Assembly (NCBI RefSeq): GCF_018279705.1
Contig: NZ_CP036498.1
Span: 186,001-250,000 of the forward strand
Origin: Tardiphaga alba
Lineage (GTDB): Bacteria; Pseudomonadota; Alphaproteobacteria; Rhizobiales; Xanthobacteraceae
Direction: 5' to 3'
DNA length: 64,000 nt
In this document: positions 5,916 to 19,058 of the stretch, piece after piece
How positions within the stretch are numbered: the stretch's first letter is position 1
Layout: the number at the start of each line of letters is the position of its first letter
The notes under the pieces: model-generated
The model's input: the letters and a program-made list of their open reading frames with translations, nothing else
What the model was told of the DNA's origin: nothing
Databases searched by the model: none
Translations under genes and position numbers: made by a program

Positions 5916-6803
5916 TTACTTATCCAGCCGCTTCAAAATCTCGTCGAGCTGATCGAGATCGCTATACTTGATCACCACGGTGCCGCCGGGATCGCGGTGA
6001 TCGACCGACACTTTCAGCCCGAGCACATCACTCACCCGCTTCTCCAGAGCGATGGTGTCGGCGTCCTTCGCGACCTTCGGCGCCGAACCCGCGCGCGGCT
6101 TTTGCGGCGCGCGCTCCGGCACGCCTTCTTCATGCGCAAGCGCTTCGGTCTGGCGGACGTTCAGGCCTTCTGCAATCACGCGCTTCGCGGCAGCGGACGG
6201 ATCGGGCAGCGAGATCAGCGCGCGGGCGTGACCATTCGAAAGCTGGTTCGATGCGATCAGCGCCTGCACGTCTTCCGGCAGTTTGGTGAGGCGCATCATG
6301 TTGGCCACATGGCTGCGGCTCTTGCCGACGATCTTTGCGATATCGTCCTGGCTGTGTTTGTAGGTCTCGGCGAGCGCGTGATAGCCCTGCGCCTCTTCCA
6401 TCGCGTTGAGGTCTTCGCGCTGGATGTTTTCGATGATGGCGATTTCCATCGCCGCGGCATCGGTGACATCCACCGGCACGACCGGCACTTCATGCAGACC
6501 GGCGAGCTGCGACGCACGCCAGCGACGCTCGCCAGCGATGATCTCGAACCGATCATTGGTGCCCTTCACGGCACGCACCACGATCGGCTGGATCACGCCG
6601 TGCTGCTTGATCGAGGACGCCAGCTCGTTCAGCTCCGCATCTGCAAACGTGCGGCGCGGATTGCGTGGGTTCGGCTTGATGAATTCGATCGGCACCTTGC
6701 GTTGGCCACGCGCCGGACGCTCGGTCTGCGCGGCTTCGCCGCCGACATCACCGATCAGACTTGCCAGGCCCCGGCCCAACCGCGAACGCGCTTCATCGGC
6801 CAT
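5916..6803 (-). CDS. parB: Chromosome partitioning protein ParB
   Basis: CTP-dependent DNA clamp that loads at parS sites and marks the origin region for segregation by ParA. At 295 residues it is of typical chromosomal ParB length. The N-terminal lysine/arginine-rich stretch is followed by the ParB/Srx CTP-binding fold with the GERRWRAS motif at residues 91-98 and ENIQREDLNAMEEA after it. The helix-turn-helix that reads parS follows (SQDDIAKIVGKSRSHVANMM), and a C-terminal dimerisation domain ends in LDQLDEILKRLDK. The ATG at 6803 has an AAGGGGA ribosome-binding site. A TTG seven codons upstream is less likely. Five parS-type sites lie 1.6-5.3 kb away in this window. Confidence 0.97.
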   Translation of the reverse strand: MADEARSRLGRGLASLIGDVGGEAAQTERPARGQRKVPIEFIKPNPRNPRRTFADAELNELASSIKQHGVIQPIVVRAVKGTNDRFEIIAGERRWRASQLAGLHEVPVVPVDVTDAAAMEIAIIENIQREDLNAMEEAQGYHALAETYKHSQDDIAKIVGKSRSHVANMMRLTKLPEDVQALIASNQLSNGHARALISLPDPSAAAKRVIAEGLNVRQTEALAHEEGVPERAPQKPRAGSAPKVAKDADTIALEKRVSDVLGLKVSVDHRDPGGTVVIKYSDLDQLDEILKRLDK

Positions 6804-6854
6804 TGCCAATCCCCTTGAACTCATGGGTCACTCCAAAACTCGAAACTCAGTACT

Positions 6855-6973: not shown

Positions 6974-7840
6974 TTACGCCGCGTCGCCCGGTGCCGCGCG
7001 GATATCACGCTCGCGCTGGATCACTTCGGTGGCAAGGCGCAGATAGGCCTCGGAGCCGGCGCACTTCAAATCATAAACCAGCACCGGCTTGCCGTAGGAC
7101 GGCGCTTCCGAAATGCGGACATTGCGCGGGATCATGGTGTCATAGACCTTGTTGCCCATGAATTCGCGGACGTCGGCAACAACCTGGTTCGACAGGTTGT
7201 TGCGCGCATCGAACATGGTCATGACGATGCCATGGATGGTCAGGCTCGGGTTCAGCGTCGAGCGCACCTGCTCCACCGTCTGCAGCAGTTGCGACAGACC
7301 TTCGAGCGCGAAGAATTCGCACTGCAGTGGCACGAGGATCGCGTCCGACGCGGCCATCGCATTGACGGTGAGAAGATTGAGCGACGGCGGACAATCGATC
7401 AGCACATAAGTATAGTCCGAGCCCGGCGAGACATTGTTGTTCAGCTCACCGATGGCATCGCGCAGACGGAAGGCGCGATCGCGGGCGCCGCCGATTTCCA
7501 GCTCGAGGCCGGAGAGATCCATGGTGGAAGCCGCGATATGCAGACGCGGCACCGCGGTGACGACGACGGCATCGCGCAGCGGCGCGTCGCCGGTCAGCAC
7601 GTCATAGGTCGAACAGGCGCGATCGCGGCGATCGATGCCGAGGCCGGTGGAGGCATTGCCCTGCGGATCCAGATCGACGATCAGCACGCGCTCACCGATA
7701 GCGGCGAGTGCGGTGCCGAGATTGATCGCGGTGGTGGTCTTGCCGACGCCGCCCTTCTGATTGGCCAGCGCCAGGATGCGCGGGTGGCCAGGGGTCGCCT
7801 TCGTGCTATCCTCTTGATGTTCCTGATCAATTACGGTCAT
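6974..7840 (-). CDS. parA: Chromosome partitioning ATPase ParA
   Basis: Deviant Walker-A ATPase that binds DNA as an ATP dimer and moves ParB-parS complexes towards the cell pole. The motif KGGVGKTT is at residues 29-36, with VLIVDLDPQGNAS and the YVLIDCPPSLNLLT Walker B segment following. The 288-residue length fits a chromosomal Soj/ParA without an N-terminal regulatory HTH. Its start overlaps the end of rsmG by 14 bases, so rsmG-parA are probably translated from one message, with parB downstream after a repeat. Confidence 0.98.
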   Translation of the reverse strand: MTVIDQEHQEDSTKATPGHPRILALANQKGGVGKTTTAINLGTALAAIGERVLIVDLDPQGNASTGLGIDRRDRACSTYDVLTGDAPLRDAVVVTAVPRLHIAASTMDLSGLELEIGGARDRAFRLRDAIGELNNNVSPGSDYTYVLIDCPPSLNLLTVNAMAASDAILVPLQCEFFALEGLSQLLQTVEQVRSTLNPSLTIHGIVMTMFDARNNLSNQVVADVREFMGNKVYDTMIPRNVRISEAPSYGKPVLVYDLKCAGSEAYLRLATEVIQRERDIRAAPGDAA

Positions 7841-8537
7841 TTGCGTGGGCCATCATGGTATCTGCGGACGGGTCGCGCCGCTCGATCTTGTCCAGTTCGA
7901 CGATCCAGCCTTGTCCGCCGGTAAGGCTCGCATGCAGGCGTGGGCTTATATTCCAACATTTAGTAGCTTCGGTCAATTCCGCGTCTACATCTTGACCCTT
8001 TAGAAACAGCGCCTTGGTGCTGCCGTTCATGTGGGGAGCCGCGAAACCGAGAATGATATCTAGCGACGCCACGGCGCGTGCGGTGATGCAATCGACGCGC
8101 TTTGGAAAACTATCCACACTATCCCCGATGTCCGCGAGGTGCACCGAACCTGGGGCTTGCGTCACACGTAATGCTTCGCGCAGGAAAGCCGCCTTCTTGG
8201 CATTGCGCTCGACGAGATGAACGTGGCCGCCGACATCACCCATGGCACAGGCCAGCACCACACCGGGAAAACCACCGCCGCTGCCGAAGTCGAGCCAGAT
8301 GCGCGCATCCGGCGCCAGCCTCAACAGCTGCAGCGAGTCAGAGATATGGCGCGTCCAGAGATGCGGCAATGTCGTCGGTGAAATGAGATTGGTCTTGGCC
8401 TGCCATTGCAGCAGCAGCGCAACATAGCGATCGAGCCGCGCTTCTGTTTCATGTGAAACAGGTGTCAGGCGGAGTGCTGCGGCTTTGTCGCTGTCGAGTT
8501 GCGGAGCGGGAGCAGATGGCTGGGAACGTTGCGCCAT
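7827..8537 (-). CDS. rsmG: 16S rRNA (guanine-N7)-methyltransferase RsmG (GidB)
   Basis: Methylates a conserved guanine in the 530 loop of 16S rRNA (position 527 in E. coli) using S-adenosylmethionine. The SAM-binding glycine loop LDFGSGGGFPG is at residues 82-92, followed by LVERNAKKAAFLREALRV. The 236-residue length is slightly long because of an N-terminal tail of about 25 residues. In relatives rsmG usually follows mnmG directly; here a 1.5-kb insertion with three genes separates them. A parS-like sequence lies inside its coding region near codons 26-31. Confidence 0.97.
   Translation of the reverse strand: MAQRSQPSAPAPQLDSDKAAALRLTPVSHETEARLDRYVALLLQWQAKTNLISPTTLPHLWTRHISDSLQLLRLAPDARIWLDFGSGGGFPGVVLACAMGDVGGHVHLVERNAKKAAFLREALRVTQAPGSVHLADIGDSVDSFPKRVDCITARAVASLDIILGFAAPHMNGSTKALFLKGQDVDAELTEATKCWNISPRLHASLTGGQGWIVELDKIERRDPSADTMMAHANDRN
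8445..8460. other. parS-like site 1 (inside rsmG)
   Basis: The 16-base sequence TGTTTCATGTGAAACA differs from the chromosomal parS consensus TGTTTCACGTGAAACA at one central position, which breaks the perfect palindrome. It lies in the rsmG coding sequence, 1.6 kb from parB. Coding-region parS sites with single mismatches are known in other bacteria, so binding is plausible but less certain than for the other four sites. Confidence 0.7.
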
Positions 8538-8630
8538 GGATCGGTATCAGTGCATCATGAAGGGAGTGATTAGTCTTACTCCGAGTCCATGACGGCGGCT
8601 ATCGAAATGCAGCCGGTTAAGAGCTTGCGG

Positions 8631-8840
8631 CCATCCTTCGAGGCTCGCTGCGCTCGCACCTCAGAATGAGGACGGAGTAAATGGCTGGATAAGCAAAGTG
8701 AGCGAAGGTGTCGTAACGACATCGCTGGAACGCTTTGGCTTGTCGAGCTCTTGCCCAGCCCTCATGGCGAAGAGGCGCGACTTGTCCCGCCGAAGCTCGA
8801 AGAGCGAAGGCGGAAGCGCCGTCTCGAACCATGGAGACAA
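8631..8840. repeat. Decayed family A repeat fragments between rsmG and the DUF4269 gene
   Basis: This 304-base gap (8538-8841) between divergent genes holds broken pieces of the family A palindrome: CCATCCTTCGAGGCTCGC with CCTCAGAATGAGG at 8631-8672, and CCCTCATGG with GTCTCGAACCATGG at 8757-8833. The pieces are in altered order and not full length. I see no gene in the gap. Promoters for rsmG and for the DUF4269 gene must lie here, but no clear -35/-10 pair stands out. Confidence 0.6.
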
Positions 8841-8841
8841 C

Positions 8842-9369
8842 ATGACGTCGCTATCCTACGAAGCCGTCATCGATCGCATCGGCATCCTCGATATCCTCGC
8901 GCCGTTCGACCCTCATGTCGTCGGTACCCTGCCGCTCGGCATCGCCCTGCCCAATAGCGATATCGATATTGTTTGCCAAGCCTCGGACCCTGATGTGGTC
9001 GCCAACCTGCTATGGACAGCTTTCAGCTCGGCCGATGATTTCACTCTGTATCGGTGGTCGGCCAGAGGCCGACCTTTGATCGCGAAGTTCAAAGCCGAGA
9101 GCTGGCCGTTCGAGATCTTCGCCAGCACCGAACTCGTTGCTGAACAGTCCGGTTGGCAGCATTTCGTCGTAGAGCGACAGCTTCTGGACCTCGCAGGTTT
9201 CGCTCTAAGGGACCAGATCATGGCGTTGCGGCTCCAGGGCATGAAGACCGAGCCCGCTTTCGCTACTGCGCTTGGACTCCCCGGCGATCCCTATGAAGCG
9301 ATGCGTGCCTTGTACTGGCTCTCGGAGATGGAATTGGCCGAGATCATCTCCAATTCGCCGGAGCTTTAG
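8842..9369 (+). CDS. DUF4269 family protein, nucleotidyltransferase-like
   Basis: Protein of 175 residues of the uncharacterised DUF4269 type. It carries GTLPLGIALPNSDIDIV, with G28, T29, D40 and D42 in the spacing of the GS-x10-DxD signature of the nucleotidyltransferase fold, which transfers a nucleotide to a protein or small molecule. A second acidic residue follows in WPFEIFAS. No substrate can be named. The ATG at 8842 is preceded by GGAGA at a short spacing; the frame stays open upstream only through repeat sequence. It sits with a YjbR-like gene, 14 bases downstream, inside a small insertion between rsmG and mnmG. Confidence 0.75.
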   Translation: MTSLSYEAVIDRIGILDILAPFDPHVVGTLPLGIALPNSDIDIVCQASDPDVVANLLWTAFSSADDFTLYRWSARGRPLIAKFKAESWPFEIFASTELVAEQSGWQHFVVERQLLDLAGFALRDQIMALRLQGMKTEPAFATALGLPGDPYEAMRALYWLSEMELAEIISNSPEL

Positions 9370-9383
9370 AGGATCGATCCGCC

Positions 9384-9713
9384 ATGGCCGATGCATCTTC
9401 TCTTCGCGAGCTGGCTCTTGCGCTGGATGGCGTGACGTCCGCTCCGCATTTCGATCGGACGGCGTTCAAGGTGAAGCGGATATTCGTGACTCTGGCCGCG
9501 GACGGGCTCACCGCGAACTTCAAACTCACCCCGGACGAACAAGCCCTGAAGTGCGAGGTTATGCCTGACGCATTTTCGCCAGTGCCAAATGCTTGGGGCC
9601 AGCAGGGTTGGACGGTGGGCACCTTGGCGAAGCTGAAGACAATCGAACTGGCAGCAGCGCTGGAGATGGCATGGCAACATGCGCTGCCAGCTCCCAGAAA
9701 GCAGAAGCCATAA
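9384..9713 (+). CDS. MmcQ/YjbR family protein
   Basis: Protein of 109 residues with the YjbR/MmcQ double-wing DNA-binding-like fold pattern: an N-terminal helix with LALALDGVTSAPHFDRTAFKV, the strand pair KRIFVTLAADGLTANFKL, and a C-terminal WTVGTLAKLKTIELAAALE stretch. The family is small and its cellular role is not settled; structures suggest DNA binding but no regulon is established. The start is 14 bases after the DUF4269 stop, so the two are probably one transcript. A perfect-core parS site starts 3 bases after its stop codon. Confidence 0.8.
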   Translation: MADASSLRELALALDGVTSAPHFDRTAFKVKRIFVTLAADGLTANFKLTPDEQALKCEVMPDAFSPVPNAWGQQGWTVGTLAKLKTIELAAALEMAWQHALPAPRKQKP

Positions 9714-9716
9714 GCC

Positions 9717-9732
9717 TGTTTCACGTGAAACG
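9717..9732. other. parS site 2
   Basis: TGTTTCACGTGAAACG matches 15 of 16 bases of the parS consensus, with the full inner palindrome GTTTCACGTGAAAC intact. It begins directly after the YjbR-like gene. Confidence 0.9.
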
Positions 9733-9820
9733 ACTTCAGATCGGCCCGTCCGGCTTGAGCCGTATCAATGACCCGTCCCTAAATACCGCAATGATGATCT
9801 CATCCTCGGAGGATGAGACC

Positions 9821-10000
9821 ATGGAACTGATTACTCGGCTATTCCTGGTATTGGCAGCGCCTATTACCGCGCTCTTTGTGTCCCGCGATGCGCTAAACTT
9901 CGGCGTTATTCAGGTGATGGTCGCGGTGGCGCTATTTGTCCTGATGGTCGCGGCCTTGGCCTTCTGGCCCCGGCGGGAATCCGGCAATACCGAGATCTAA
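9821..10000 (+). CDS. Small hydrophobic membrane protein, unknown function
   Basis: A 59-residue protein with two predicted membrane helices (about residues 5-22 and 28-49) and a charged tail RRESGNTEI. The ATG at 9821 has a strong GGAGG ribosome-binding site at 9808-9812, eight bases upstream, which favours this start over the in-frame ATGs at 9791 and 9794. It lies between two parS sites. I do not recognise a family. The good ribosome-binding site and the clean two-helix pattern argue that it is real. Confidence 0.6.
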   Translation: MELITRLFLVLAAPITALFVSRDALNFGVIQVMVAVALFVLMVAALAFWPRRESGNTEI

Positions 10001-10005
10001 CCGTC

Positions 10006-10021
10006 CGTTTCACGTGAAACA
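10006..10021. other. parS site 3
   Basis: CGTTTCACGTGAAACA matches 15 of 16 bases of the parS consensus, with the inner palindrome GTTTCACGTGAAAC intact. It lies in the 23-base gap between the convergent small membrane-protein gene and mnmG. Confidence 0.9.
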
Positions 10022-10023
10022 GA

Positions 10024-11898
10024 TCAAGCGACGCTGATCGTCGCGGTCCTGCGGGCATCCCGGCGTAGATAAGCGGTCAGGATCGCCAAAGCGGCTGGTG
10101 TGACACCATCCAGACGACCCGCCTGCCCGACGGTCCGCGGCGAAGCCGCCTTGAGCTTCGCACGGGCCTCGTTCGAGAGCCCGGGCACCAAGTCGTAATC
10201 GACATCGGTCAACAATAGACCTTCATCGCGGCGGAAAGCCTCGACGTCGGCCGTCTGGCGCTTGAGATAGACATCATATTTGGCGTCGATCTCGATATGG
10301 GTGCCGATGGCTGGGTCAATGGCCGAGAGTTCGGGCCAGATTCGGATTACGGTAGACCACTCACTCTCCGGATAAGAGAGAAGATCGAACGCCGATCGGC
10401 GCTGGCCATCGTGATTGAGGGACAGGCCATGCTTCGCCGCCCCGTTCGGGGTGATCGACAGCTCCTTGGTCAGAGCCTTGCCGGCCGCCAGCGCATCCAT
10501 CTTCGCCGTATGGCGGGCAATACGGGCGCTGCCGACACAGCCAAGAGCAATACCCTTGTCGGTCAAGCGCTGATCAGCATTGTCAGCGCGAAGAGTCAGG
10601 CGATATTCGGCCCGGGACGTGAACATCCGATAGGGCTCTGAGATGCCGCGGGTCACGAGATCGTCGATCATCACACCGAGATAGCCATCTGCGCGGTCAA
10701 ATACGGCCGGCGCCGAGCCCGACGCGGCAAGCGCTGCGTTCAGACCAGCCACAAGGCCCTGGGCGGCGGCTTCTTCATAGCCTGTGGTGCCGTTGATCTG
10801 CCCGGCCATAAACAGGCCCGGCATCCGCTTCGCCTGAAGAGTCGGATCGAGTTCACGGGGATCGACATGGTCGTATTCAATAGCATAGCCGGGCTTGATC
10901 ATCCGCACACGCTCGAGACCGGGGATCGAAGCCAGGATCGAAACCTGAACCTCTTCCGGAAGCGAGGTGGAAATGCCGTTGGGATAGACGGTGTCGTCAT
11001 CGAGCCCTTCGGGCTCCAGAAAGATCTGATGACCATCGCGATCGCCGAAGCGAACGATCTTGTCCTCGATGGACGGGCAATAGCGCGGGCCGGAGCTCTT
11101 GATCTGGCCGGAATACATCGGTGAGCGATGCACATTGGCGCGGATCACTTCGTGGGTGGCCGGCGTCGTGCGGGTGATGCCGCACTGGATCTGGGGCGTG
11201 GTGATACGGTCGGTCATCACCGAGAACGGCTCCGGCGGATCATCCGCCGACTGCATCTCGACCGCGGACCAGTCGATGGTCTTGCCGTCGAGGCGCGGCG
11301 GAGTGCCGGTCTTGAGACGGCCGAGGGTAAAGCCGATGCGCTCGAAGGCTTTTGACAAGCCGAGCGCTGGCGCTTCGTCGATGCGACCGGCGGGCCAGTT
11401 CTTCTCGCCGAGATGGATCAAGCCGCGGAGGAAAGTTCCCGTAGTGATCACCACGGCGCCGGCGCTGAGTTCCCGGCCATCGGCCAGGCGGATACCCGTC
11501 ACCCGGCCATTGGCCGTGAGGAGATCGTCGGCCTCGCCTTCAATGACACTGAGATTTTCGGTTGCGGTGATCGCAGCCTGCATGGCGGCGGCGTATAGCT
11601 TGCGGTCGGCCTGGGTGCGCGGCCCCCGGACGGCCGGACCCTTCTTACGATTGAGCATGCGGAACTGGATGCCACCGGCATCCGCAACGCGGCCCATCAG
11701 CCCATCAAGAGCATCGACCTCGCGGACAAGGTGGCCCTTACCCAGACCACCTATCGCAGGATTGCAGGACATGGCCCCAATGGTGGCGAAGCGATGGGTC
11801 ACCAACGCCGTATGGGCGCCCATGCGCGCAGCCGCGGCCGCAGCTTCGCAGCCGGCGTGTCCACCACCGATAACGATGACATCGAACTTGTCTTGCAT
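10024..11898 (-). CDS. mnmG: tRNA uridine-5-carboxymethylaminomethyl modification enzyme MnmG (GidA)
   Basis: FAD enzyme that, with MnmE, installs the carboxymethylaminomethyl group on uridine 34 of several tRNAs. The FAD-binding motif [12 protein letters not shown] is at the N-terminus (residues 9-20), followed by [19 protein letters not shown], a family signature containing a catalytic cysteine. The 624-residue length is normal. The ATG at 11898 begins [13 protein letters not shown], which fits the family; an in-frame TTG at 11928 would add ten residues. Its partner mnmE lies upstream on the same strand, separated by two parS sites and a family A repeat. Confidence 0.98.
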
Positions 11899-11954
11899 GG
11901 GCGCAGCTTCTACCGCGCCTGTGGACAAGATTGAAGGAGATTCTGAGAGGGCCG

Positions 11955-11970
11955 TGTTTCACGTGAAACA
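11955..11970. other. parS site 4 (perfect)
   Basis: TGTTTCACGTGAAACA is a perfect match to the chromosomal parS consensus. It lies in the gap between mnmG and mnmE, 5.2 kb from parB. Confidence 0.95.
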
Positions 11971-12002
11971 GGGAAACTAATTCATATTCCTTTCCACCGA
12001 CC

Positions 12003-12109
12003 CCTCATCCTGAGGAGCCGCGCAGCGGCGTCTCGAAGGATGGCGGCTTGGCAGGATCCAAGCGATTTCATGGTTCGAGACGGCGCTACGCGCCTCCTCA
12101 CCATGAGGG
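12003..12109. repeat. Palindromic intergenic repeat, family A, copy 2
   Basis: Full-length copy with the CCTCATCCTGAGGAGC left end, GTCTCGAAGGATGGCGG and CATGGTTCGAGACGGCG inner arms and CACCATGAGGG right end. It is flanked on both sides by perfect parS sites. Confidence 0.85.
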
Positions 12110-12117
12110 CAGAGAAA

Positions 12118-12133
12118 TGTTTCACGTGAAACA
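12118..12133. other. parS site 5 (perfect)
   Basis: TGTTTCACGTGAAACA is a perfect match to the parS consensus, 15 bases downstream of the mnmE stop codon in the mnmE direction. Confidence 0.95.
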
Positions 12134-12148
12134 CAGTGATAGGATTTA

Positions 12149-13474
12149 TTACTTACCTATGCAAAAATCCCTAAATATGCTATCGAGCACATCTTCCACA
12201 TCGACCCGCCCGAGCAATCGCCCGAGCTGATGCGCGGCGGCGCGCAAATCTTCTGCGACCAGCTCGTCACCTTGTTGCGCTGATCTTGCGGCATGCTGCA
12301 GCAAATTGGCCGTGCGACGAAGCAGGTCGCGTTGACGATCGCGGGTGATGAAACCTGCTTCGCCCTGCCCGAAATATTGGGATGCGAATGCGACCAGTGC
12401 GGACATCAGCTCGCTCATGCCGTCGCCGCGCTCGGCCGAAATCGAGAGCGTTGCGTCTGCCGAGCTAATAGTAGCTACATCGGTCTTCGTCCTAATGACC
12501 CAGACCGGCGCATCGCTTTCGGTCAGCCAACCTTCCGGCCGCGCGGCATCAACTGAATCCACCAGCCACAAAACGAGATCCGCTTCGACGGCTCGGGCGC
12601 GCGCGCGACGAACGCCCTCTTCTTCTACGGGATCGATGGTTTCACGAATACCGGCGGTGTCGATCACGGTGACCGGGTAGCCGTCGAGATCGAGCTGCAC
12701 CTCGATCACATCGCGCGTTGTCCCCGCATGCGGTGAGACGATCGCGACATCGCGACGGGCAAGCTGGTTCATCAAGGTGGACTTGCCGACATTGGGCTGG
12801 CCGGCGATGGCAACGACGAGACCGCCGCGCAGTCTTTCGCTGCGACCCTGCGCCGATAGGACCTGCTCGATTTCACGATGGAGCGCTGCGGCCTTTTCGA
12901 GCGCGGGCGCCATCAGCTCGGTTGAGACATCGCCCTCGTCGGAAAAGTCGATTCCGACTTCGACCAACGCAAGAGCTTCGATGATCTGCTGGCGCCAGTT
13001 GCGGGCCTTGTCGCCGAGCAGGCCCTTGAGCTGGCGAAGCGCCTGCCTCCGCTGGCGGTCAGTGTCGGCATGAATGAGATCGTCGAGGCCCTCGGCTTCG
13101 GTGAGATCGAGCTTGCCGTTCTCGAAAGCGCGGCGGGTGAATTCACCGGGCTCTGCCGGACGGAGACCATCGATGGACGCCAGCGCTTCGAAGAGGGAGG
13201 TGAGAACCGCGCGGCCACCGTGGATGTGGAATTCAGCAGTGTCCTCGCCGGTCGCGCTGGCAGGTCCGGGAAACCAAAGCACTACGGCGTCGTCGATGGG
13301 ACCGAGCTTGTCGTCGGCGAGCAGCACATGGGTGGCCATGCGCGGTATCGGGATTTTCTTGGCGAGGCGTTCAAGCGTCGCGCCGGCGCGCGGACCCGAG
13401 ACGCGCACGATGGCGATCGCGGTCGGGGGCCGGCCGGAGGAGAGTGCGTAAATGGTCTGATCGCGCGGATGCAT
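12149..13474 (-). CDS. mnmE: tRNA modification GTPase MnmE (TrmE)
   Basis: Potassium-dependent GTPase partner of MnmG in wobble-uridine modification. The N-terminal tetrahydrofolate-binding domain carries [17 protein letters not shown] helical region follows, with an inserted Ras-like G domain: G1 GQPNVGKS at residues 225-232, then TTRD, the G3 DTAG, and RTKTD in the place of NKxD. The protein ends in the catalytic CIGK tetrapeptide. At 441 residues it is of typical alphaproteobacterial length. mnmE and mnmG lie on the same strand with mnmE upstream. Confidence 0.98.
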
Positions 13475-13531
13475 CTCCTATTTGACGATGGTGGGGGTGA
13501 GGTGCAACGGGATTCTCACGTGCCCCTCTTT

Positions 13532-13632
13532 TGTCATCGCCCGCGAAAGCGGGCGATCCAGTAGACACTGACGGCAGTGATCAAAGCGACAGCCAATGTT
13601 TACTGGGTCGCGCGCTTTCGCGGGCGATGACA
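13532..13632. repeat. Palindromic intergenic repeat, family D, copy 1
   Basis: Bounded by TGTCATCGCCCGCGAAAGC and GCTTTCGCGGGCGATGACA, which are exact inverted copies, with a middle containing CCAGTAGACACTGACGG and TGTTTACTGGGTCGC. Related copies are at 23252-23370 and 30804-30905, each with the GATCCAGTA/TACTGGATC type centre. It lies between the mnmE start and the rho terminator. Confidence 0.85.
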
Positions 13633-13647
13633 ACGGAGTGGGTGGCC

Positions 13648-13682
13648 AAAAACAAAAAGGCGCCGCTGTTTCCAGCGACGCC
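13648..13682 (-). terminator. Intrinsic terminator downstream of rho
   Basis: On the minus strand, a ten-pair stem (GGCGTCGCTG pairing with CAGCGGCGCC, one T-G wobble) around a GAAA loop is followed by TTTTTGTTTTT. It starts 24 bases after the rho stop codon. It is the clearest factor-independent terminator in the window, which is notable because it ends the gene for the factor-dependent terminator. Confidence 0.85.
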
Positions 13683-13705
13683 TTCATCGTCAGAGCTTCT
13701 CGCCC

Positions 13706-14971
<1,266 letters not shown>

Positions 14972-15256
14972 TGGGAGTGGTCCTGTGGAAGATCGGAGGG
15001 GGAGTGCAAGCTGCTGGAGAAGGTGCGGACGCTCAAAAGAGTCACGAAAGTCCGCAGGTCTCCGGCAGAGAAGTCTTGAGCGGTTAAGGTGCTGAAGAGA
15101 CTTCAAGCCTGATGTGGCGGCCGGCGGATTTAAAAGCCGGGTCGAACCGCATCGCCTGCGTCGGGTGGGAGAACTCGAACATATGGGACATCCGCTCAAC
15201 GCGCAAGATCGCCGGAAGTGCCGGCATGATCGAAATCTGAGCGGCGAAAATTATTC
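14972..15256 (-). promoter_or_regulatory. Leader region of rho
   Basis: The 285 bases between the hemJ stop and the rho start contain no supported gene. Near the rho-proximal end there is a seven-base inverted repeat (GAAGTCT and AGACTTC, around 15070-15103) enclosing about 21 bases. Long leaders that let Rho limit its own expression are established in E. coli and others; whether this one does so is inference from its length and position. Confidence 0.4.
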
Positions 15257-15679
15257 TCAGAACGGCTTCACCACCACCAGGATCACGATCAGGATCATCA
15301 GGACGGTCGGTACCTCATTGAGAATCTTGTAGAATTTCGCGCTTCGCGTGTTGCGGTCAAGCGCGAAGTCGCGCACCCGGCTGGTCAGGAAGCCATGAAC
15401 GCCGGACATCACCAGCACTAGGAAGAGCTTCGCGTGAAACCAGCCTGATGTGAACCAGCCGCCGGACCACGCCAAATAGAGACCAAGGATCCAGGTGACC
15501 ATCATCGCTGGATTGATGATGGCCTTGAGCAGCCGTCGCTCCATCACCTTGAAGGTCTCGGACTGCTTGGAGCCAACCTCGGCATCGCAGTGATAGACGA
15601 ACAACCGTGGCAGATAGAGCATGCCCGCCATCCAGGAGATGACGGCGACGATGTGCAGAGCTTTCGCCCATTCATACAT
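15257..15679 (-). CDS. hemJ: Protoporphyrinogen IX oxidase HemJ
   Basis: Integral membrane enzyme of 140 residues that oxidises protoporphyrinogen IX to protoporphyrin IX, the penultimate step of heme synthesis. Four membrane segments are visible. The conserved histidine in KALHIVAVISWMAG near the N-terminus, the LPRLFVYH segment, the MERRLLKAIINPAM lysine region and SGWFHAKLFLVL are characteristic of the HemJ/YgiZ family. The ATG at 15679 is the only reasonable start. It borders the proposed origin, where Caulobacter and Rickettsia carry another heme gene, hemE. Confidence 0.93.
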   Translation of the reverse strand: MYEWAKALHIVAVISWMAGMLYLPRLFVYHCDAEVGSKQSETFKVMERRLLKAIINPAMMVTWILGLYLAWSGGWFTSGWFHAKLFLVLVMSGVHGFLTSRVRDFALDRNTRSAKFYKILNEVPTVLMILIVILVVVKPF

Positions 15680-16144
15680 TGCTAAGCCTTAGCCTCTATC
15701 AGGAGGATACGCGGGATCGTTGGGGAACATCTGACCCGCATCGCCGTTGCCCGCAAGCGCGATCAACGCGGTTATCCGTGCTCTATCCGCACGAACCTCT
15801 TCCCTCAATCTATTATTAGATTCTTAAGGTTTGAGTCTGTTTGACCGTGGATTTGGCGGACACAACGTCATCCCCGTGTCATCCCATGCTTGTGCACACC
15901 GCCATCTGAATCTTCTGCGAGTCCTCTTGCGATCCATAAAGATAGGCGGCGTCGAGCTTTGCGGGACGTCCGGGCGGGATTCCGGAGAGACAAATCCACA
16001 TAACCCCATTATCATTGTGAACGTCGCCAAACGGTGTCCCCGCAGGCAGGCCTGTGTAGAAGAATCCGGGTTATCCCGGCCGCCTCGCCACCGCCGCCGA
16101 TTCCGCTGAAAATCTCCACAGCGATCCACAGAACACACAGGGTT
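15680..16144. other. Candidate chromosomal replication origin (oriC)
   Basis: A 465-base gap with no supported gene between hemJ (leftward) and ppsR (rightward). It holds an AT-rich tract at 15807-15830, imperfect DnaA-box-like nonamers (TTATCCGTG 15772, CTATCCGCA 15783, AAATCCACA 15992, TTATCCCGG 16071, CGATCCACA 16122), and seven GANTC sites, the target of the CcrM methylase (starts at 15819, 15833, 15908, 15919, 15978, 16062, 16099). Its place beside the ppsR/RP001 homologue, maf, coaE and dnaQ, and 8-10 kb from parAB, matches the origin of Caulobacter crescentus. No perfect TTATCCACA box is present, so the call rests on the combination. Confidence 0.7.
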
Positions 16145-16987
16145 ATGGTGCATACCACCGGCAGCTTTTTTCACCTTCATCTCGTCTCCGATTCCACCGG
16201 TGAGACGCTGATCACGGTCGCCCGCGCCGTGGCCGCGCAATATTCGAACGTGACGCCCGTCGAGCATGTCTATCCGCTGGTGCGCAGCCAGAAGCAGCTC
16301 GACCGCGTGTTGACCGAGATCGAGGAAGCGCCGGGCATCGTGCTGTTCACGCTGCTTGAGAAGGATTTGGTCGAACGGCTGGAAGCCAAGTGCCAGGAGA
16401 TCAATTCGCCGAGCCTTTCGATCATCGGGCCGGTGATGCAGCTGTTCCAGAATTACCTCGGTGCCTCCACCTCCGGCCGTGTCGGCGCGCAGCACGTTCT
16501 CAACGCGGAATATTTCAAGCGGATCGACGCGCTGAATTATTCGATGATGCATGATGACGGGCAGCATACCGACGGGCTGGAAGAGGCCGATGTGGTCCTG
16601 GTCGGCGTGTCGCGGACGTCGAAGACGCCGACCTCCATCTATCTGGCAAATCGTGGCATCCGCACCGCCAATGTTCCGCTCGTCCCCGGAATCCCTATTC
16701 CGAAGCAGCTCGAGTCGCTGAAGAAGCCGCTGGTGGTCAGTCTACATGCGACGCCGGAACGTTTGATCCAGATCCGGCAGAACCGGCTGCTCTCGATCGG
16801 TAGCGATACGGCGAATGACGATTATATCGACCGTCAGGCGGTGACCGATGAAGTCACCTATGCGCGCAAGCTCAGCGCCAAATATGGCTGGGCTCTGCTC
16901 GAGGTGACGCGCCGCTCGATCGAAGAGACCGCTGCGGCGATCATGAAATTGCTGGCGGACCGCCAGCGACAACGGATGCAGGAATGA
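16145..16987 (+). CDS. ppsR: Pyruvate, water dikinase / PPDK regulatory protein (DUF299 kinase-pyrophosphorylase)
   Basis: Bifunctional regulator that switches phosphoenolpyruvate synthase or pyruvate phosphate dikinase off by ADP-dependent threonine phosphorylation and on by phosphate-dependent removal. The 280 residues include the P-loop GVSRTSKT at 154-161 followed by [11 protein letters not shown] and the VPLVPGI segment, all diagnostic of the family. The ATG at 16145 opens [20 protein letters not shown], the conserved start. The gene abuts the proposed origin, as its homologue RP001 does in Rickettsia. Its stop overlaps the maf start in an ATGA, so translation is coupled. Whether the target is PpsA or PpdK cannot be decided here. 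Confidence 0.93.
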
Positions 16988-17592
16988 CCATCTGGCGCGG
17001 CGAACAGCCGCTGATTCTGGCGTCGCAAAGTGCGGCGCGACGCATGCTGCTGGCCGGTGCCGGCATTACCTTCGACGCAGCTCCCGCGGATATCGACGAA
17101 CGCGGCATTCAGCAGCGTTCCAATCTGACCGCGCCTGGCGACATCGCCGCTTTGCTCGCCGAGCAGAAGGCGGCCTTCGTCTCGCTGCGACACCCCGGAC
17201 GCTATGTGGTCGGCGCCGACCAGACATTGTCGGTCGGCGACCGGCTGTTCAACAAGCCGACCGGCCGCGACCAGGCGGCGCAGCAATTGCGTGACCTCTC
17301 GGGCAAGACGCATGAACTGCATTCGGCGATCGCGGTGGCCTGCGACGGCGCGACCTTGTTCTCACATGTCTCGGTGGCGCATATGACCATGCGCCAGCTC
17401 GACGATGCCGCCATCGACGCCTATCTCGATGCCGCCGGCGACAGGGTGACGACCAGTGTCGGCGCCTATCAGCTCGAAGGCCTGGGCGTGCATCTGTTCG
17501 AGCTGATCGAAGGCGATCATTTTACGATCCTTGGCCTGCCGCTGCTGCCGCTTTTGAAATTTCTGCGCGGCGAAGGCATGATTGGAATTTAA
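16984..17592 (+). CDS. maf: Maf-like nucleoside triphosphate pyrophosphatase
   Basis: House-cleaning pyrophosphatase of 202 residues that hydrolyses non-canonical or modified nucleoside triphosphates. The N-terminal [19 protein letters not shown] motif, [15 protein letters not shown], the [21 protein letters not shown] region and [20 protein letters not shown] at the C-terminus are the family's motifs. The subfamily (dTTP/UTP or m7GTP) is not certain; the motifs resemble the YceF group. The start overlaps the ppsR stop by four bases. In Caulobacter aroE follows maf; here a repeat and then coaE follow. Confidence 0.93.
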
Positions 17593-17597
17593 TTCAC

Positions 17598-17692
17598 CGT
17601 CATTGCAAGGAGCCGAAGGCGACGAAGCAATCCAGAAGCCAAGTGAAGAAAGAGCTGGATTGCTTCGTCGCTGCGCTCCTCGCAATGACGGC
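17598..17692. repeat. Palindromic intergenic repeat, family B, copy 1
   Basis: Bounded by CGTCATTGCAAGGAGC and GCTCCTCGCAATGACG with inner arms GACGAAGCAATCCAG and CTGGATTGCTTCGTC. It forms one long imperfect hairpin between maf and coaE, where other alphaproteobacteria keep aroE. Copies lie at 26700-26777 and 52398-52474; this copy has a longer loop. Confidence 0.9.
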
Positions 17693-17705
17693 ATAAAATG
17701 AGGGA

Positions 17706-18311
17706 ATGGGAATGCGCGTCTTGGGGCTGACCGGCTCGATCGGCATGGGGAAATCGACCACCGCAAAACTGTTCGTGGAAGCCGGCGTGCCCGTCTATGA
17801 CGCCGATGCCACCGTGCACATGGTCTATGAAAATGAAGCGGTGCCGCTGATCGAAGCGGCGTTTCCCGGCACCACGGTGGATGGCAAGGTCGATCGCACA
17901 AAGCTCTCGCCGCTGGTCGTGCACGACGCGGATGCGATGAAGAAGCTGGAAGGCATCGTGCATCCCCTGCTCGCCAAGCATCACAAGAAATTCCTCGATG
18001 ATGCCGAAGCTTCCGGCGCTGACATTGCCGTTGTTGATGTGCCGCTGCTGTTCGAGACCGGTGGTGACAAGCGCGTCGATGGGATCGTCGTCGTCTCCAC
18101 CGATGCGAAGACCCAGCGTGAGCGGATCCTGGCCCGTGACGGCATGACCGAAGAAAAGCTTGACGCCATTCTGGCGCGGCAGCTGCCCGATGCGGAAAAG
18201 CGCAAACGCGCCGACTTCGTGGTGGATACCTCACACGGGATCGAGCCCGTGCGCGCCCGGATCGCTGAAATTCTTGTCGAGGCTGCTAAGCTGCCTAGAC
18301 GTCGCCCTTAA
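17706..18311 (+). CDS. coaE: Dephospho-CoA kinase
   Basis: Catalyses the last step of coenzyme A synthesis, ATP-dependent phosphorylation of the 3' hydroxyl of dephospho-CoA. The P-loop GSIGMGKS is at residues 10-17, followed by DADATVHMVYE and the DVPLLFETGGDKRVDGIVVV segment, with a lid region rich in arginine (ILARDGMTEEKLDAILARQ). The 201-residue length is normal. ATG 17712 (MRVLGLTG) is an equally plausible start two codons in. Upstream lies a family B repeat, so it probably has its own promoter or depends on read-through from maf. Confidence 0.96.
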   Translation: MGMRVLGLTGSIGMGKSTTAKLFVEAGVPVYDADATVHMVYENEAVPLIEAAFPGTTVDGKVDRTKLSPLVVHDADAMKKLEGIVHPLLAKHHKKFLDDAEASGADIAVVDVPLLFETGGDKRVDGIVVVSTDAKTQRERILARDGMTEEKLDAILARQLPDAEKRKRADFVVDTSHGIEPVRARIAEILVEAAKLPRRRP

Positions 18312-18344
18312 AATTCCTGCCTGATTTGCTGAGTCGATACACCA

Positions 18345-19058
18345 ATGCGCGAAATCGTCATGGATACGGAAACCACCGGCCTCGATCCGCTACGCGGCGA
18401 TCGTCTGGTGGAAATCGGCTGTCTCGAAATCTTCAATCGCCTGCCGACCGGCCAGACGTTTCACGTCTATATCAATCCCGAGCGCGACATGCCGCAGGAG
18501 GCGTTCAACGTTCACGGCCTGTCAGCGGAATTCCTGTCCACCAAGCCGCTCTTCCATGAAGTGGCCGACGACTTCATGGCCTTCATCGGTGATTCGCCGC
18601 TGGTGATGCATAACGGCTCGTTCGACCTTGGCTTCATCAATATGGAACTTGATCGCATCAAGCGTCCAGCAGTGCCGCGTGATCGTCTGGTCGATACGCT
18701 GCTGATCGCCCGCCGCAAGCATCCCGGCGTATCGAACAAGCTCGATGATCTCTGCGTCCGCTATTCCATCGATATTTCCCGCCGCACCAAGCACGGCGCA
18801 TTGCTCGATTCCGAGCTTCTGGCCGAGGTCTACATCGATCTGGTCGGTGCGCGGCAGTCGTCGCTGATTCTGGCGGATGATGCGCCGATACTCGTCCGCA
18901 GCAATGTCGGTGATGCGCCGCGCCGTCAGCGTGAGGTGGCCCTGGCGCCCCGCGTGACGGACGATGATCGCGCCACGCATCGTGCCTTTGTCGGCACGCT
19001 CGGCGACAAACAAATCTGGTCGGAATTCTGGGGCGAGCCGGACAAGGCGGCTGGGTAA
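18345..19058 (+). CDS. dnaQ: DNA polymerase III epsilon subunit (proofreading exonuclease)
   Basis: 3'-5' exonuclease of the replicative polymerase, 237 residues. Exo I is MDTETTGLD, with the metal-binding aspartate and glutamate close to the N-terminus. Exo II is HNGSFDLGFIN and Exo III is HGALLDSELLAEVY, with the H-x4-D pair, so all catalytic residues are present. The C-terminal tail likely binds the alpha subunit. It follows coaE after 33 bases and probably shares its transcript; the coaE-dnaQ pair is conserved near the origin in alphaproteobacteria. It converges on secB, with a family C repeat between them. Confidence 0.96.
   Translation: MREIVMDTETTGLDPLRGDRLVEIGCLEIFNRLPTGQTFHVYINPERDMPQEAFNVHGLSAEFLSTKPLFHEVADDFMAFIGDSPLVMHNGSFDLGFINMELDRIKRPAVPRDRLVDTLLIARRKHPGVSNKLDDLCVRYSIDISRRTKHGALLDSELLAEVYIDLVGARQSSLILADDAPILVRSNVGDAPRRQREVALAPRVTDDDRATHRAFVGTLGDKQIWSEFWGEPDKAAG

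Follow-up and report, generated by a model that had tools for sequence, protein, structure and literature searches.

The gap between the divergent genes hemJ and ppsR (15680-16144) is very probably the chromosomal replication origin, oriC, of Tardiphaga alba, and of the usual alphaproteobacterial kind, as judged from its sequence and from those of related genomes. It lies in a window of 64,000 nucleotides (G000:C1:186001-250000), by which we mean the whole stretch of DNA that was analysed, from a closed chromosome of 5,857,905 bases (5.86 Mb). The assignment draws on GC skew, parS-like sites, a dif-like site, synteny, DnaA-like boxes and an unstable tract, and the same evidence supports the candidate chromosome origin that a sequence-only reading had proposed at this place.

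The names hemJ and ppsR that this reading had given to the flanking genes were borne out by family matches (Table 1), and ppsR shared 98% identity with its counterpart in a metagenome assembly of Tardiphaga (L001). Because NF003742 is the PEP synthase/PPDK regulatory protein, the window's ppsR is not the photosynthesis repressor that bears this name. Downstream of ppsR, maf-like, coaE and dnaQ genes were found on the plus strand; rho lies past hemJ on the minus strand, and further left are mnmE, mnmG, rsmG, parA and parB. An Rfam search of 13000-19000 gave no structured RNA at the gathering score.

Table 1. Features in and around the hemJ-ppsR gap (window positions; GANTC row counts refer to the 79-row family alignment).
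Feature	Position	Strand	Remarks
parB	5916-6824	-	PF02195, PF17762, PF23552
parA	6974-7840	-	PF13614
Five parS-like sites	8445, 9717, 10006, 11955, 12118 (8445..12133)	.	at most one mismatch to pattern
hemJ, left flank	15257..15679	-	TIGR00701 match
Predicted oriC, hemJ-ppsR intergenic region (divergent genes)	15680..16144	.	GC-skew switch, parS, dif-like site, synteny
Weak DnaA-box-like CTATCCGCA, left of unstable tract	15783..15791	+	2 mismatches; TATCCGCAAG in many relatives
AT-rich tract, predicted DNA unwinding element	15803..15846	.	34% G+C, window 62%
20-base element AGATTCTTAAGGTTTGAGTC, two GANTC sites	15818..15837	+	strongly conserved family block; single genome match at no more than 3 mismatches
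GANTC site 1 (GATTC), conserved	15819..15823	.	same column in 69/79 rows; within one column in 78/79
GANTC site 2 (GAGTC), conserved	15833..15837	.	68/79 rows; 11/79 without
Weak DnaA-box-like TTGTGCACA	15890..15898	+	2 mismatches; TTGTTCACA in many relatives
GANTC sites 3 and 4, not conserved	15908, 15919 (15908..15923)	.	same column in 5/79 and 3/79 rows
Weak DnaA-box-like CGATCCATA	15930..15938	+	2 mismatches; poorly conserved in rows shown
GANTC site 5, not conserved	15978..15982	.	3/79 rows
Weak DnaA-box-like AAATCCACA	15992..16000	+	2 mismatches; exact 9-mer, either strand, in 62/80 gaps
Weak DnaA-box-like TTCTACACA	16053..16061	-	2 mismatches; block conserved as TGTGAAGAA
GANTC site 6, not conserved	16062..16066	.	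4/79 rows
GANTC site 7, not conserved	16099..16103	.	same column in 2/79 rows; within one column in 6/79
Box-like word array by ppsR: ATCTCCACA, CGATCCACA, AACACACAG, 10 bases apart	16112..16140	+	
ppsR (PEP synthase/PPDK regulator), right flank	16145..16987	+	NF003742

The origin was placed on the chromosome by GC skew in a sample of 2.42 Mb (41%), which was made up of evenly spaced pieces and of near-contiguous stretches at the record start and the terminus; it is not a random sample, and it is denser near origin and terminus. A circular model with two switches, fitted in 5-kb blocks, put the switch to G-rich at 195 kb and its reversal at 3,135 kb. The gap, at 201.7-202.1 kb of the chromosome, is 7 kb from this best-fitting switch. 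Moving the breakpoint cost 1.42 log-likelihood units at 185 kb, 0.48 at 190 kb, 1.56 at 200 kb, 2.09 at 205 kb and 2.21 at 210 kb, and an origin at dnaA (record positions 16-1413) fitted 27.4 units worse. In the near-contiguous stretch over the record start, the cumulative skew had its minimum at 193,085. The proximity of this minimum speaks for an origin in the gap, whereas its offset of about 9 kb to the left, like the shallow skew around the origin, counts against it. A minimum at the record end (5,855 kb) in the linear interpolated cumulative curve was discarded as an artefact of cutting the circle and is superseded by the circular fit.

The genome's only five parS-like sites within one mismatch are located at 194.4-198.1 kb, 3.5-7.2 kb from the gap, and the reversed parS pattern, which served as the control, had zero matches in the genome at one mismatch. 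A dif-like site with one mismatch, the best of 11 strand matches at no more than three mismatches, was found at 3,184,765, nearly opposite the gap. The two arms from the gap to this site measure 2.98 and 2.88 Mb (ratio 1.04), whereas the ratio from dnaA is 1.19. The gap thus shows the skew switch opposite the terminus that characterizes alphaproteobacterial origins of the Caulobacter type. Among the matches listed for the KOPS-like word GGGNAGGG all were forward, and counts in the sampled pieces switch sign at about 3.2 Mb and are uninformative at the origin. A parS site here reads TGTTTCACGTGAAACA, the first nine letters of which are TGTTTCACG. A methylation study of Bradyrhizobium diazoefficiens, in its accessible part, used 'DnaA binding boxes (TGTTTCACG)' to locate the origin (PMC4840208); since this word begins the parS site, it may have marked parS and not oriC.

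Conservation of the locus was examined with ppsR relatives from a contig scan, in which 257 were found and 80 were kept. hemJ was upstream of ppsR on the opposite strand in 79 of the 80, the contig of the remaining one (L009) stopping before hemJ, and the gap was 426-575 bases long in 78. The family alignment comprised 79 rows, the window and 78 relatives, with L009 and L037 (hemE inside the interval) omitted; because many rows are closely related to one another, row counts do not equal independent events. The conserved footprints were TATCCGCAAG, the AT-rich tract with TAGATTCTTAAGGTTTGAGTC, GTGGATT, TTGTTCACA, ACAAATCCACATAACCCC, CCTGTGAAGAA, GGTTATCCC and, reaching up to the first base of ppsR, the array CTCCACAG-CGATTCACAG-GATACACAG.

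That alphaproteobacterial origins adjoin COG1806 and hemE is already known from PMC1914354, whose accessible text takes either hemE or COG1806 as the criterion. In Caulobacter crescentus, Cori is located between hemE and the COG1806 gene CC_0001, next to the ppsR homologue as the sequence-only reading had also stated (PMC1914354). The gap in the window likewise adjoins a COG1806-type gene, ppsR, but it has hemJ in place of an adjacent hemE; because one flank is enough, the window still fits the description in PMC1914354. The gap also shares with Cori weak DnaA boxes, an AT-rich tract and GANTC sites, as far as the accessible parts of PMC1914354, PMC3973325 and PMC4468827 describe them. In L037 (Bradyrhizobium sp. 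U87765), hemE is retained (TIGR01464; 8602-9642) and separates hemJ from the origin; the 358 bases from hemE to ppsR hold the conserved blocks and five GANTC sites. This genome thus bridges the hemJ arrangement and the hemE-COG1806 arrangement of Caulobacter, and since hemE is kept at its origin, the hemJ flank of the window probably resulted from the loss or move of hemE. A Bradyrhizobium genome paper, in its accessible part, predicted the origin by skew and signature sequences (PMC4036050).

Nine nonamers in the gap differ from TTATCCACA or TGATCCACA at no more than two positions, whereas shuffles gave 1.9 on average and none of 500 reached nine; the shuffles in this study are first-order Markov resamplings and not exact dinucleotide permutations. 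The DnaA-box-like nonamers described by the sequence-only reading are therefore present, though just one of them is at one mismatch, CGATCCACA at 16122-16130. There were zero exact boxes, and 75 of the 500 shuffles reached the one-mismatch count, which is thus not significant. The family as a whole had 513 words within two mismatches of the DnaA box in the 79 rows, versus 152 in shuffles. The third word of the array by ppsR, AACACACAG, was assigned by eye and has more than two mismatches from the box. The gap accordingly contains the DnaA-box cluster of a Caulobacter-type oriC, with all boxes weak.

The AT-rich tract mentioned in the sequence-only reading was also recovered (Table 1). The least stable 30 bases among 63,971 window positions start at 15807, and for windows of 40, 60 and 100 bases, 6, 38 and 40 positions, respectively, were less stable than the best of the gap when overlaps were counted apart. 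An A+T content above the genome average combined with an unstable tract, as in Caulobacter-type oriC, was hence observed in the gap.

The seven GANTC sites reported between 15819 and 16103 were all found, and their exact positions are given in Table 1. The window contains 131 GANTC sites in total against a shuffle mean of 356, which indicates that GANTC is generally depleted in the window and agrees with the depletion published for Ensifer (PMC8725594, accessible part). The window rate corresponds to 0.58 GANTC per 285 bases, from which a Poisson model predicts about 0.004 clusters of this kind in a window and about 0.07 in the whole genome. Such a model understates the clustering in real DNA: four places with at least seven GANTC in 285 bases were detected in 2.42 Mb (41%), namely the gap, 330111, 3751733 and 5856871. 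The statement that nothing else explains such a dense cluster was thus not upheld, since three other places in 41% of the genome are equally dense and five of the seven sites occur in their own column in no more than 5 of the 79 rows. Site 1 read GATTC in 59, GAATC in 14 and neither in 7 of 80 rows, some of the last from a missed anchor, and the spacing between sites 1 and 2 shifts by single bases between rows. Selection for a methylase target would leave such a pattern, in which GA and TC are kept while the middle base and the spacing vary.

As to the other clusters, the one at 3751733-3751899 is upstream of an ORF that resembles RpsL by eye, and the one at 330111-330373 separates a dUTPase-like ORF from the following ORF, which has the same orientation. 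The rpsT-dnaA gap (G000:C1:5856630-5857905, 1276 bases) contains an exact box TTATCCACA and 11 GANTC, of which 7 fall in a stretch of 285 bases. A same-genus genome, L284, likewise reaches 7 GANTC per 285 bases upstream of dnaA. A dnaA-upstream cluster is a feature of the Dam/SeqA type, and it was present at this density in the window's genome and one same-genus genome, whereas the family was not above controls. GANTC upstream of dnaA was considered as a second conserved methylation hub and rejected: its density there was 1.80-fold over coding DNA in 29 loci, while TC.GA reached 1.80 and CT.AG 2.58.

For comparison among loci, the tract was taken as the AT-richest stretch of 40 bases, extended by 8 at each end, a definition made after the first alignments had been viewed. 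The 79 family gaps had two to nine GANTC each, with a mode of four. Over the whole gap in the 78 relatives, GANTC reached 1.79 times the shuffle mean and was top of eight palindromic five-base words, the next being at 1.38 and 1.31. In the tract, GANTC was present in 79 of 79 rows (shuffle mean 20.1, maximum 30) with 185 sites (shuffle mean 23.1, maximum 36).

The order was sampled by searching ppsR in 61 genomes including the window's own, with a match in 53. Thirty loci and 20 fetched later, less the window and one same-family genome, made a set of 48; G007 was excluded for too little upstream DNA, and G010, G055 and a second copy in G020 as weak matches. Upstream of ppsR the GANTC density peaked, with 12.1 per kb in the bin of 300-350 bases and 16.2 per kb in that of 350-400 bases, while ppsR itself had 2.5 per kb. 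In the same two bins, seven control words with G or C were at no more than 5.8 per kb, and four A/T-only words were at up to 11.7, as is expected from an AT-rich tract. In the segment 300-450 bases upstream, 41 of 48 loci had GANTC (shuffle mean 25.6, maximum 34), with 82 sites (mean 37.6, maximum 53). In the tract it occurred in 35 of these 48 loci from other families (shuffle mean 10.8, maximum 21), 13 having none, with 56 sites (mean 13.0, maximum 24). Since the idea arose from the first 30 loci, the 20 later ones are a cleaner test; their tracts had GANTC in 12 of 20 (shuffle mean 4.3, maximum 9) with 16 sites (mean 5.0, maximum 11), and the control word AG.CT was also above shuffles there (9 sites, mean 3.7, maximum 8). 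By a loose rule, 28 of the 48 order loci have a GTGGATT-like box, and the preceding 60 bases held GANTC in 24 of these 28, the best control reaching 10. For the class, 28 loci were returned from 49 other-order genomes with a ppsR match. GANTC was in 11 of their 28 tracts, with 15 sites (mean 6.0, maximum 13), which is weaker than in the order; the 300-450 segments had 30 sites (mean 17.1, maximum 30), and 20 of 28 segments had GANTC against a shuffle maximum of 21.

The tract counts in the family rows and the order loci, compared with their shuffles, suggest that the methylase target within the unwinding element is order-wide, or at least it appears so in these genomes. The enrichment of a methylase target, here GANTC, in oriC and its unwinding region is a property of Dam/SeqA-type origins. 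The literature covered, which comprised the accessible parts of papers and left most subscription papers outside its scope, contained no statement of GANTC conservation in the unwinding element across the order.

Other motifs were compared in the same sets. The gap has one CtrA near-match, at 15813-15827. CtrA-like matches numbered 154 in the family gaps against a shuffle mean of 32 (maximum 46) and occurred in 58 of 79 rows. In the tracts alone they were little above tract shuffles, with 15 of 79 rows in the family against 6.3 (maximum 13), 13 of 48 loci in the order against 4.5 (maximum 9) and 3 of 28 in the class against 1.6. Most other alphaproteobacterial origins are described as being without visible CtrA sites in the accessible part of PMC4468827. 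The box-like word CTATCCGCA (15783-15791) is followed after 18 bases by CTATTATTA (15810-15818), immediately before the first GANTC. This pair resembles the DnaA box and DnaA-trios of the basal unwinding system and lacks conservation in most rows shown; its spacer of 18 bases compares with the 16 or fewer allowed in PMC8287927, as far as its text was accessible. In L256-L283, TAG/TGG runs were seen 260-460 bases upstream of ppsR, several of them by CTGTGGATAA-like boxes, as with DnaA-trios. TAG/TGG-type runs occurred in 18 of 28 loci of other alphaproteobacterial orders (shuffle mean 4.9, maximum 10), and TTG-type runs in 21 of 48 loci of the window's order (shuffle mean 8.4, maximum 16), the patterns TTG and TAG having been picked after the sequences were inspected.

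Three other explanations were weighed. If the true origin were at dnaA, at record position 1, the hemJ-ppsR gap would be merely a conserved promoter region. The GANTC cluster and the exact TTATCCACA of the 1276-base rpsT-dnaA gap would suit this explanation, but we consider it highly improbable: besides the loss of 27 log-likelihood units in the skew fit, the cumulative skew, despite local rises, declines overall between the record start and 193 kb, the genome search at no more than one mismatch found no parS near dnaA, and the arms to the dif-like site are less equal. Moreover, the exact box or its TTTTCCACA variant was present in 0 of 29 relatives' dnaA-upstream regions, three of which end short of rpsT. 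It is also improbable, although less so, that the abundance of GANTC in the tract is a mere consequence of AT-rich composition. In Ensifer, intergenic DNA has about double the GANTC frequency of coding DNA (PMC8725594, accessible part), and the 1.80-fold enrichment upstream of dnaA in the family is matched or surpassed by other five-base palindromes, both of which would agree with a compositional origin. However, in none of the four sets (family, order, later-fetched order loci and class) did a composition-matched shuffle yield as many GANTC sites in the tract as were observed. The seven control words, counted in the tracts of the last three sets, stayed within their shuffles with one exception, AG.CT in the 20 later-fetched loci. 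The family controls cover the whole gap only, where GANTC stands above the next word as given above.

The strongest rival concerns the GANTC sites themselves and is a promoter role of the GcrA type, shared or sole. The conserved pair would then be part of a promoter, of hemJ or of a regulatory transcript, that GcrA or RNA polymerase recognizes, and would not serve replication. We take this as a serious possibility, though a somewhat doubtful one. GANTC works via GcrA at promoters according to the accessible text of PMC8116508, the pair is 140-158 bases upstream of hemJ, and the other dense GANTC clusters are in apparent intergenic DNA, including the one upstream of the ORF likened by eye to RpsL. 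A hemJ promoter is made less likely by the 28 loci of other families that were fetched first: their flanks, up to 1.5 kb long, gave no match to hemJ, but GANTC is retained in the tract in 23 of them. This argument is limited in that a promoter may overlap the unwinding element or be used by another gene.

With the gap as oriC, DnaA, which is encoded 200 kb off, would bind the weak boxes on both sides of the tract, mostly on the right and up to ppsR, and would open the tract. Two forks would depart from the opened tract toward the terminus near 3.13-3.18 Mb, and ParAB with the nearby parS sites would then separate the new origins. The two conserved GANTC sites in the opening tract would be CcrM targets, and because they are inside it, they should be hemimethylated after each round, for as long as CcrM has not acted. 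The genome encodes one CcrM-type RAMA domain protein (378-residue frame) and two GcrA-like proteins, one of them strong. A RAMA match was found in 73 of 77 relatives (72 over the cut-off); since just 4 of the 77 genomes are without one, they provide no presence/absence contrast of CcrM against GANTC.

In E. coli oriC, the GATC sites of Dam, an orphan methylase, are in and around the unwinding region, and the GANTC sites in the window are likewise placed. In contrast to E. coli, the methylase here is CcrM, the effect of methylation is putative, and we know of no SeqA in the window's system. The location, the conserved anatomy and the excess of tract GANTC over composition can be read directly from the sequences. 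That methylation makes the tract easier or harder to open, or that a protein recognizes it, as happens with GATC in E. coli, is a guess, and an unlikely one. It is equally unlikely, in our estimate, that throughout the order (Hyphomicrobiales) the unwinding element is built around CcrM sites and the methylation state directly sets opening by DnaA. Agrobacterium tumefaciens belongs to the same order as the organism of the window. In that species, depletion or overproduction of CcrM changed the RepC-dependent second origin, and CcrM levels were without significant effect on the DnaA-dependent first origin (PMC11514494, accessible part); the direct control of opening by methylation was rated lower because of this result. 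PMC3973325, as far as accessible, mentions several GANTC in the Caulobacter origin (attributed to Shaheen 2009), normal initiation in the delta-ccrM mutant and reported extra chromosomes upon CcrM overexpression. CcrM is apparently essential in alphaproteobacteria other than Caulobacter (PMC6090056, accessible part). The data from Caulobacter and Agrobacterium speak against methylation having a simple role in initiation, and the tie of GANTC methylation to replication timing named by the sequence-only reading is conjectural for this origin.

Since the record begins at dnaA, 200 kb from the predicted origin, the oriC placed here would be the reference for work on gene dosage and segregation. 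If the methylation state does set opening by DnaA, a fresh hemimethylated origin would be hard to open until CcrM appears, and the tract would be a convergent counterpart of E. coli GATC. The GANTC sites in the tract offer a testable hook for distinguishing a direct action of CcrM at the alphaproteobacterial origin, like that of Dam in E. coli, from one through transcription only.
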